A DNA stretch of 64,000 bases from an uncultured Acholeplasmatales bacterium (lineage in GTDB: Bacteria > Bacillota_I > Bacilli_A > Acholeplasmatales > Anaeroplasmataceae): NCBI GenBank assembly GCA_944324705.1, contig CALUXI010000002.1, positions 1 to 64,000 of the forward strand. The letters are read 5' to 3'. Shown here one piece after another: positions 46,773-49,540 of this stretch. A model generated the notes under the pieces. It did not search any database. It was not told the origin of the DNA and saw only the letters and a program-made list of their open reading frames with translations. The position numbers and the translations under genes are program-made. How positions within the stretch are numbered: the first letter of the stretch is position 1; each line of letters opens with the position of its first letter.

Positions 46773-48071
46773 CTATTCTATTACTGTTTGATAATTTTGA
46801 CCATTAAAATAACCGATTACTTCATTAGAATCTACATAGTAAACTCTATACCAATTTTCACCTTTAGATGAATCAATAATGTAACTAATTTGATATCTTT
46901 CATTTAAATTGAATGACATATCAGCATTAACTTTTTGATGATAAATTAAAACTGTTACATCATTAATATATCGTTGAACCCAATAACTCATATCAATTAA
47001 ACTTTGTCTTTCTAAATCTGTTAAACTTCCACTATCATTATATACACTATCAACAACATCAATTGTTAAGTCATTGTAATACATAAATTTAGCAAGAATT
47101 GAATATGTATATGTGTTAATTTTCTTATAAATAGAAATTTCATAGTCTTTATGATCTGCTAAATAGTCACTAACTAAAACCATTGCGGCTTTATAATGAT
47201 TATTATTAGAGCCAATAACGTGTATATGCTGAATATTAGTCAAATCTACTTGATCAGGGTTTTGAACATCTTTATCATCACCATATTCAATGCCGTTAAC
47301 AATTAAATCATTTTCCGTCTCTTCTACACTAATGTTTGTTTGTGAAAAATCAACATAAATAACATTAGGTAATTCATTATTAACTAAGGCAGTCATATTA
47401 AAACACCCATTAGAAAGTCTTAAATTGCTAGAATTTTCTTGATTTTCATTAATATATTGTGCACTATTAACAATGACTTTGTATGCATATTTTAATGGTA
47501 AATTACTAAAATTATTACTAACAGAAAACGAACCATTGTTAATAGTTAAATCTGTACTTTCATAATAATTATCGTTATAAAAGTCATAAATCTTAATGTT
47601 AGAGCATGTTGTTTCATCAGTATAGAAAACAATATAATTATAATGTTCTAAAAATTCACGGGCATAACGTCTAAGATTAAATCTAGATAAATCAATGACT
47701 ACTTGTAACTCTATCATAGGTTTTTGAGTTTCACAATCAATCTTTTTATAAAGTTCAAAACTTAAAATTTCATTTTCAAATGCATTTTGTCTGGCTTCAC
47801 TATTATCTTCAAGTGTAGTAGCTGTATATTTATTATTAGATTGAGCTTGATATGAACCATCATCTTGAAGACCAGTTACGTGAATACCTGCAGCTTCTAA
47901 GATATCTTTTGTTTCGCTAGGATCTAGTGGCTTAGTATAACTTAAATTACCACTACCAGAAACATTAGCACTACTAGCTGCTGATAACCCTATAGTAGTA
48001 CTAATAACCAATAAGACTCCTACAATCAATAAACTAAATAAGGTTGTAAGTAAGCGAATTTTCTTTCTCAT
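46773..48071 (-). CDS. Secreted protein of a TasA/SipW-like locus
   Basis: 432 residues. Signal peptide: basic MRKKIR, hydrophobic core and small residues to about 32 (STTIGLSAASSANVSGSGNL), closely parallel to the start of the smaller secreted protein upstream (MRKKFRIF, then GIWAASQATVTSEGGML). After that an acidic Tyr/Asn-rich region of no recognised family; no sortase motif or membrane anchor. It overlaps the signal-peptidase stop (ATGA) with a GGAGGT site, so the peptidase and its probable substrate are co-translated. It may be a minor fibre subunit or anchor. Confidence 0.75.
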   Translation of the reverse strand: MRKKIRLLTTLFSLLIVGVLLVISTTIGLSAASSANVSGSGNLSYTKPLDPSETKDILEAAGIHVTGLQDDGSYQAQSNNKYTATTLEDNSEARQNAFENEILSFELYKKIDCETQKPMIELQVVIDLSRFNLRRYAREFLEHYNYIVFYTDETTCSNIKIYDFYNDNYYESTDLTINNGSFSVSNNFSNLPLKYAYKVIVNSAQYINENQENSSNLRLSNGCFNMTALVNNELPNVIYVDFSQTNISVEETENDLIVNGIEYGDDKDVQNPDQVDLTNIQHIHVIGSNNNHYKAAMVLVSDYLADHKDYEISIYKKINTYTYSILAKFMYYNDLTIDVVDSVYNDSGSLTDLERQSLIDMSYWVQRYINDVTVLIYHQKVNADMSFNLNERYQISYIIDSSKGENWYRVYYVDSNEVIGYFNGQNYQTVIE

Positions 48072-48838
48072 TTTCTTACCTCCTTACGTTTTATTACTAT
48101 TTTAATATTAGTTCTATTTTTAAAGTCTGGCATCTTTAAATTATATTTGTTATAAGGAATAACTTTTATATAAATTAACCTTCTTTGAGGTTGTAGTTTA
48201 GTTGTAGTACTTGATTTACTTTTGTATAAATTACCTTTATATTTAACCTTTTTAGGATCAGGTTCTGAAGTTATAATCATTATTAATTCCCAAGTTAAAT
48301 AAATTAACATTATTATACAAGGTACTATTATTAAACAAATTATGCCAGTTCTAGAAACAACAAAAGCTAACGTACTACTTAATGCAGGATTTAATTTAAC
48401 ACCTAAACCAACAACGAAGTCTTCTGGCACATAATAAGTATCATCATAAGTATTACTACTACCCTTGGTTAAATACATATTATTACCATCTTCATCTACC
48501 TTAATGTCAATAATTTCATGTATCCATATAGGTGTGTTTTTTAATTGTTCTTTATCTACATCTTCATCATCATAAAGACTAGGAGCTCTATAAAAAGCTA
48601 TAACATCACCAATGTTATAATTCTTTTGTCTTTCTAAAAAGACTACTTCTCCTACTTCATAACCACTAGCTTCCATTGAACTTGAACTAACTATACCTAA
48701 ACGATAACCAAAGAAACTTGTATGTGTAGATAAGCATAATATAGCCATAACAATAGAAAATAATAAAACAAGCGTAAAGGGAATATCAAGAATGCAATTT
48801 AAAATAAAAGATAAAACTTTATTGCTAGATAATTGCAT
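48068..48838 (-). CDS. SipW-like (ER-type) signal peptidase I
   Basis: Membrane serine protease, 256 residues. Membrane segment near 18-38, catalytic Ser54 in VSSSSMEASGY, His107 in IWIHEIID instead of the lysine of ordinary bacterial type I peptidases, and a DD pair near 132-133. This Ser-His-Asp set is that of SipW and eukaryotic/archaeal signal peptidases. A second membrane segment lies at about 165-190, then a basic cytosolic tail. In Bacillus SipW processes TasA and TapA. The ATG at 48838 behind GAGG is preferred to an upstream GTG. Confidence 0.88.
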   Translation of the reverse strand: MQLSSNKVLSFILNCILDIPFTLVLLFSIVMAILCLSTHTSFFGYRLGIVSSSSMEASGYEVGEVVFLERQKNYNIGDVIAFYRAPSLYDDEDVDKEQLKNTPIWIHEIIDIKVDEDGNNMYLTKGSSNTYDDTYYVPEDFVVGLGVKLNPALSSTLAFVVSRTGIICLIIVPCIIMLIYLTWELIMIITSEPDPKKVKYKGNLYKSKSSTTTKLQPQRRLIYIKVIPYNKYNLKMPDFKNRTNIKIVIKRKEVRK

Positions 48839-48872
48839 ATTCACACCCTCTTTACGCTATTAATTTTTTATA

Positions 48873-49433
48873 TTATTGACTAGCTTCGTTTGTTAAATTA
48901 ATTGAAAATCTAATATTACCACTTGCTGAAGCTGTTTTATCAGACATACTTAACTTTACATAGATCATTTGATTAGCACCTTGATCTATTGAATAATTTT
49001 TTTCTCCAGAATAATCATCATAACTAGAGTTATCAGTACTAACAGCAACATTAAATTTATCTGAACTATCTTCTTCATTCAATGTTAAGACAACATTCAA
49101 AGCAACTGAATCTGGGTTGTTATTAGTAATCTTTAATACAAAAATATATTCATCTTTTTTATTAAAATTATAGTTAGCTAAGGTTAAAGTGTCAGAGTCC
49201 TTTGCTAAATCAGTAGCTCCAAATTCAGCACTATCATCCGCAACAAAACTAGAATCTGTATAATCTTGATCTAATTCAACTGTTGCATAAACTTCACTAC
49301 CTGCTGTAAATGTAAGCATACCACCTTCACTTGTAACTGTAGCTTGGCTTGCTGCCCAAATACCTACAGACATAACAATAAGCACTAAAACCATAGAAGT
49401 TAGTGTTGCAAATATTCTAAATTTTTTTCTCAT
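48873..49433 (-). CDS. TasA/camelysin-like secreted protein
   Basis: 186 residues. Signal peptide (basic start, hydrophobic core, VGIWAASQATVTSEG) followed by a compact beta-rich domain with FVLKITNNNPDSVALNVVLTL and a closing ASGNIRFSINLTNEA, the style of TasA/CalY fibre or camelysin-like proteins. The match is by layout, not by a firm motif. The ATG at 49433 is chosen (GAGG 7 bases upstream, N-terminus parallel to its relative downstream) over an ATG two codons earlier. First gene of a three-gene operon driven by the G9 promoter. Confidence 0.72.
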   Translation of the reverse strand: MRKKFRIFATLTSMVLVLIVMSVGIWAASQATVTSEGGMLTFTAGSEVYATVELDQDYTDSSFVADDSAEFGATDLAKDSDTLTLANYNFNKKDEYIFVLKITNNNPDSVALNVVLTLNEEDSSDKFNVAVSTDNSSYDDYSGEKNYSIDQGANQMIYVKLSMSDKTASASGNIRFSINLTNEASQ

Positions 49434-49460
49434 TTTCATACCTCATTTCCCTTTAATTGA

Positions 49461-49490
49461 ATTATACCCCCCCCCGTAGTATTTTGTCAA
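49461..49490 (-). promoter_or_regulatory. Promoter with a G9 homopolymer in the spacer (probable phase-variable switch)
   Basis: Perfect -35 TTGACA (plus TGTCAA 49485-49490) and perfect -10 TATAAT (plus ATTATA 49461-49466) are 18 bases apart. The nine spacer bases next to the -10 are all G on the minus strand (plus C run 49467-49475). One slip to eight G would give the optimal 17-base spacer; longer or shorter tracts would weaken the promoter. Homopolymer-dependent promoter spacing is an established phase-variation mechanism in other bacteria; here it is inference. Confidence 0.8.
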
Positions 49491-49501: not shown

Positions 49502-49525
49502 AAAAAAATCGAGTAAAAACCCGAT
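49502..49525 (-). terminator. Insulating terminator upstream of the G9 promoter
   Basis: A 7-bp stem with one wobble (49508-49514 with 49519-49525), followed on the minus strand by a seven-T run, 12 bases upstream of the -35. It would stop read-through into the operon, leaving it dependent on the G9 promoter. Confidence 0.65.
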
Positions 49526-49540
49526 TGTAGTGCTATCATA

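Follow-up and report, generated by a model that had tools for sequence, protein, structure and literature searches.

A run of nine G residues lies between perfect −35 and −10 boxes in the promoter of a three-gene operon within the 64-kb window (the whole stretch of DNA analysed here). We consider it probable, with good confidence, that the run serves a vegetative sigma-A-type promoter as its contingency (phase-variation) tract. The promoter as a whole would very probably act as a genetic dimmer or on/off switch, and the same arrangement recurs at other loci of the source genome and in its relatives.

Anatomy of the promoter

On the minus strand, positions 49490-49461 read TTGACA-AAATACTAC-GGGGGGGGG-TATAAT. 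The −35 hexamer (49485..49490) and the −10 hexamer (49461..49466) agree with the consensus at 12 of 12 positions, and the 18-nt spacer, half of which is G, consists of a nine-base lead AAATACTAC (49476..49484) followed by the G9 homopolymer GGGGGGGGG (49467..49475), the proposed slippage tract, which abuts the −10 box. This arrangement is as the original prediction had described it. The operon had also been placed 28 bases further on, a distance that does not hold for the first ATG, 21 nt downstream of TATAAT, but is close for the start that matches the orthologues (the third codon), at 27 nt. Between promoter and operon is a short leader (49440..49460, minus strand) with Shine–Dalgarno-like GGG / GAGG. 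Moreover, a terminator scan located an intrinsic-terminator-like hairpin with a T tail just upstream of the −35 box (49507..49526, minus strand); terminator-like sites in the region number 3, against 0.1 expected, and this hairpin may insulate the putative switch from read-through. The design can be searched for by a simple signature, TTGACA-N9-G8..11-TATAAT.

Chance expectation and recurrence

The G9 tract is the sole run of at least six G or C in the window, which has 26% GC. A C9 or G9 run is expected 0.01-0.02 times per window by dinucleotide shuffles or a Markov estimate, and this does not yet require that the run be placed between perfect boxes; a run of nine occurred in 1 of 100 dinucleotide shuffles of the window, and the Markov expectation is 0.017. 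The statement that nine consecutive G residues are very unlikely by chance in DNA this AT-rich is thus borne out. Similar excesses of runs of at least nine were found in 455 kb sampled from the source genome (3 observed vs 0.11 expected) and in 400 kb of the family member G012 (5 vs 0.48), and six of these eight runs fall between −35 and −10 boxes.

A search of the whole source assembly (G000, 1.64 Mb) returned four G9 tracts immediately 5′ of TATAAT, three of them with a perfect TTGACA. Besides the promoter of the window operon (C2:49467, perfect TTGACA), these precede an IclR-family regulator (C1:77003, 17-nt spacer), an operon led by a 205-aa secreted protein (C14:6088, with a 29-nt core identical to that of the C1 site) and, with a weak −35 box, a secreted Big_2-domain protein of 936 aa (C4:74625). 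At C16:20667, the tract of a fifth promoter is interrupted (G5AG3); the protein encoded behind it has 943 aa, is lipoprotein-like and contains Listeria-Bacteroides repeats. Behind the C14 promoter (L154 50-6027), the secreted protein of 205 aa is encoded together with a DUF2357 protein and a large membrane protein whose ATPase-like match is weak; a similar layout was found in G003.

Within the genus, at least six G adjoin TATAAT in every one of the eight genomes, at 15 distinct sites, compared with one for the backward control. In the family, the full motif is present at 35 sites in 16 of 55 genomes, with no backward control matches, and the poly-C version of the motif occurs in 0 of 55 family genomes. 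Within the order, the motif is confined to this family, with a tract of at least seven G in 13 of 160 genomes; across the class, it was detected in 19 of 395 genomes and 12 of 192 sampled genera, including families beyond that of the window, with controls again at 0, and a further scan gave a similar picture. An origin of the tract by chance, or by an artefact of assembly or sequencing such as two-colour poly-G, is difficult to reconcile with placement that is repeated across many species, paralogues and orthologues while matched controls give 0, and with the unique sequence flanking the tract on either side. Although G counts are uncertain in assemblies of uncultured bacteria, and a run of at least nine appeared in 5 of 300 windows of a first-order Markov simulation, this origin was rejected on the recurrence and the zero controls, and we assign it a negligible probability.

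The collected set comprises 56 sites, including three from viral contigs, with tracts of G8-G11 and spacers of 14-21 nt. In most cases (31 of the 56 sites) the lead measures 9 nt, the commonest length. In G481, seven near-identical G8/G9 promoters form an array (C6:8343-27066; L107, L108), mostly before paralogous secreted proteins, and an eighth copy lies on contig C41. Promoters of the form TTGACA-N-G8+-TATAAT were also seen on three IMG/VR viral contigs (L101-L103).

Tract length at orthologous promoters

The gene order of the window operon is kept in six genomes, each a different species of the genus. All sequences used are assembled consensus, probably metagenome-derived, and tract lengths may be in error; as assembled, the orthologous promoters have G9 in the window, G8 in each of G003, G004 and G007, and G6 in G002. 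Comparison of tract lengths in related genomes had been proposed as a check of the original prediction, and the lengths do differ, over G6-G9. In particular, G002 and G007 share 100 identical alignment columns upstream of the region of the boxes, yet have G6 vs G8, and the sole other difference nearby is a 36-bp tandem duplication in G007. A second G007 promoter (C7:99) had no matching promoter in the orthologous region of G002. Counting against variation in length, two orthologous pairs from G065 and G067 are equal (G8/G8 and G10/G10), and seven of the eight near-identical promoters of G481 are G9.

In the sixth species, G005, the same operon stands behind TTGATA-N17-TAAAAT, a promoter with no tract, and the G005 orthologue of the C14 gene likewise has an ordinary 18-nt spacer. 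With ordinary spacers in front of the orthologues of both gene 1 and the C14-type gene, the tract is therefore an optional, dispensable part of an otherwise ordinary promoter. In G004, G003, G007 and G002 (L048, L059, L046, L047), the orthologous promoter carries a TGAAAGCGCTTGACA-like sequence that resembles a CcpA cre site and overlaps its −35 box, and this cre-like, TGAAAGCGCTTGACA-type sequence is absent from the window promoter; the switch may additionally be subject to catabolite control.

A different reading sees in the G tract a fixed functional element, for example a regulator site or a DNA-structure element beside the −10 box, selected for its sequence, and takes the length differences to be incidental. 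Consistent with this, the G residues are always on the non-template strand, the poly-C version is absent, the tract touches TATAAT at 52 of the 56 collected sites, a weak lead consensus AAA-N-TATAY is common to the sites, and several near-identical pairs have unchanged length. The bias towards G on the non-template strand only is not explained by slippage alone. On the other hand, the lengths range over G6-G11 with the box spacing changing along with them, and orthologues lacking the tract still have −35/−10-like boxes. Outside the boxes there is no sequence conservation between sites, which also means that no single long element has been copied to these sites. We therefore regard a fixed element as unlikely, and the phase-variable tract as the preferred reading.

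Genes behind the promoters

All three genes of the window operon are on the minus strand. Gene 1 (48873..49439) encodes a secreted protein of 188 aa, whose start is probably codon 3, as in the orthologues (MRRKF..), and which has a predicted signal helix followed by a beta-rich part. Gene 2 (48068..48844) encodes a 258-aa signal peptidase I of the SipW/archaeal (ER) type, and gene 3 (46773..48071) a secreted protein of 432 aa with an N-terminus similar to that of the gene 1 product (45% over about 50 aa). The description of the operon as SipW-like is upheld, as gene 2 passes the TIGR02228 profile (56.9 bits, cut-off 51.85), though it is far under the cut-off of the Bacillus SipW equivalog NF046067 (57.3 bits, cut-off 190). 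Searched against a genome collection, the SipW protein returned a single match, archaeal and distant, which was of no use.

The TasA-like label fared worse. Genes 1 and 3 have no family match in Pfam or NCBIfam, and for gene 1 no match to TasA / CalY (Peptidase_M73 family) was obtained in Pfam, NCBIfam or PDB sequences. A fold search with gene 1 returned generic beta-sandwiches only, from a low-confidence model (pLDDT 57) that is weak evidence either way, and TasA membership of gene 1 was rejected on these results. The label rests solely on operon context and the signal-peptide region; it should not be used beyond analogy, and because no TasA match was found, the 'fibre-like coat' of the original prediction is speculation. 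The analogy is with the tapA-sipW-tasA operon of Bacillus subtilis, which has the same layout of secreted protein, SipW-type peptidase and secreted protein, but the sequences differ, with no TasA or TapA match here, and in B. subtilis SinR/Spo0A, not a G tract, regulate the operon.

Across promoters with the motif, the product of the first gene downstream was scored as having an N-terminal hydrophobic segment in 42 of 50 cases, a count inflated by gene-family copies that enter more than once, compared with 6 of 19 controls (Fisher p = 6e-5), the controls being a small set of TTGACA-N17-TATAAT promoters without a G run from one genus. The screen does not separate secreted from membrane proteins; the targets are predicted to be mostly surface, secreted or membrane proteins. 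They include InlB-like repeat lipoproteins, BspA-type leucine-rich repeat proteins and Big_2 proteins, and also prepilin-like proteins (G005), a glycosyltransferase and the IclR regulator.

It may also be supposed that the tract is hypermutable with little effect on expression, slippage being tolerated in promoters that work with spacers of 16-20 nt. The assembled spacers mostly measure 18-19 nt, which suggests tolerance of a wide range, and the expected optimum of 17 nt is not the usual length, which counts against phase variation as well. But the exact position between perfect boxes, the enrichment at genes of N-terminally hydrophobic proteins and the repeated occurrence in distinct genera all suggest selection, and known poly-G spacers do alter expression (PMC7864442). 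Hence, we consider tolerated slippage very unlikely, and retain the reading of a tract whose length matters for transcription.

Proposed mechanism

In our model, slipped-strand mispairing during replication would add or remove G residues, and the changed count would alter the distance between the −35 and −10 boxes (in the window promoter, G8 gives 17 nt, G9 18 nt and G10 19 nt), rotating the boxes relative to each other. Transcription of the operon would then rise or fall, heritably and reversibly, among sister cells. G8 would plausibly be the strongest state of the window promoter and G9 somewhat weaker, since published poly-G spacers, those of porA and tp0126, have an optimum of 17 nt (PMC7864442, discussing porA). 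The window promoter would be one of a genome- and family-wide set acting mostly on surface or secreted proteins, and the benefit would be surface diversity against host, phage or competitor. Slippage within populations, the influence of length on transcription and this benefit are what we infer here.

The features that would be expected of a phase-variable promoter working through spacer length were found as follows: a homopolymer lies between −35 and −10, near-identical promoters differ in its length, though not every close pair does, and the hydrophobicity screen points to surface-exposed or secreted targets. Accordingly, the proposal that this promoter is phase-variable is partly supported: comparison backs it well, through recurrence, the G6 vs G8 pair with identical flanks and the mostly secreted or membrane targets, while variation within populations and effects on expression are predictions of the model. 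Since MutS usually damps slippage in mononucleotide runs, its presence in 52 of 55 family genomes, the source genome included, was counted against slippage; loss of mismatch repair as a cause was rejected on the presence of MutS in the source genome.

Poly-G tracts also interrupt coding sequences in the source genome. The reading frame switches at a G10 in a Dam-like methyltransferase gene (G000:C1:2019-2028; L014 1501-1510), at a G7 in a second adenine methyltransferase gene, ParB/adenine methyltransferase (G000:C5:31909-31915; L032), and at a G7 in a gene for a sugar-binding protein (G000:C4:21105-21111; L028). These three tracts possibly reflect translational phase variation or decayed genes; the Dam-like gene has one more frame break besides the G10 and may be decayed. 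The frame breaks in the two DNA methyltransferase genes and the sugar-binding gene further support the presence of poly-G contingency loci here. In addition, a G7 tract (G000:C2:82596-82602; L025) serves as ribosome-binding site for a gene encoding a zinc-ribbon protein, and is possibly a translational tuning tract.

More tentatively, and with rather less than even confidence, we propose that the poly-G spacer promoters throughout the genome, at several surface operons and at a regulator of the IclR type, would act as a network with the poly-G frameshift tracts in DNA methyltransferase genes to generate combinatorial surface states, that repeated origin or spread would account for the design within the class, and that the strict bias for G and never C would reflect a role beyond slippage.

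Comparison with known systems

Most known cases of phase variation by tracts in promoter spacers come from a few host-adapted Gram-negatives, spirochaetes and chlamydiae. In porA of Neisseria meningitidis, as here, poly-G is in the −35/−10 spacer, its length sets the spacing and the target is a surface protein; however, Neisseria is Gram-negative, whereas the present promoters have perfect consensus boxes, several loci per genome and secreted proteins of Gram-positive type. The spirochaete Treponema pallidum has poly-G promoters at several surface-protein genes per genome, tp0126 (OmpW-like) and the tpr genes, which resembles our set. The tract of tp0126 also lies between −35 and −10, with an optimum of 17 nt (PMC7864442), whereas in tprL and its paralogues it is just upstream of the transcription start and not in the spacer. 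Chlamydia trachomatis CT533/lpxC likewise has a homopolymer between −35 and −10, for which reads of that species showed length mixtures (PMC4514472), but the tract is poly-A, at a single locus, before a biosynthetic enzyme. In Streptococcus pyogenes, homopolymer indels at Spy1336/R28-Spy1337 change the transcript level of a Firmicute surface protein (PMC7098570), as would be the case here, but this is a T tract upstream, between divergent genes, and it is not repeated genome-wide.

Searches of an open-access subset of the literature found no description of such promoters in this bacterial group. In a low-GC lineage represented here only by genome assemblies, the same design turns up repeatedly, for the most part at surface genes, and since counting tract lengths requires no culture, cell-to-cell heterogeneity of the surface can be tested directly with metagenome reads that already exist. 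The reading that is largely supported is that a type of switch known from Neisseria and Treponema extends to a multi-gene set in this lineage.
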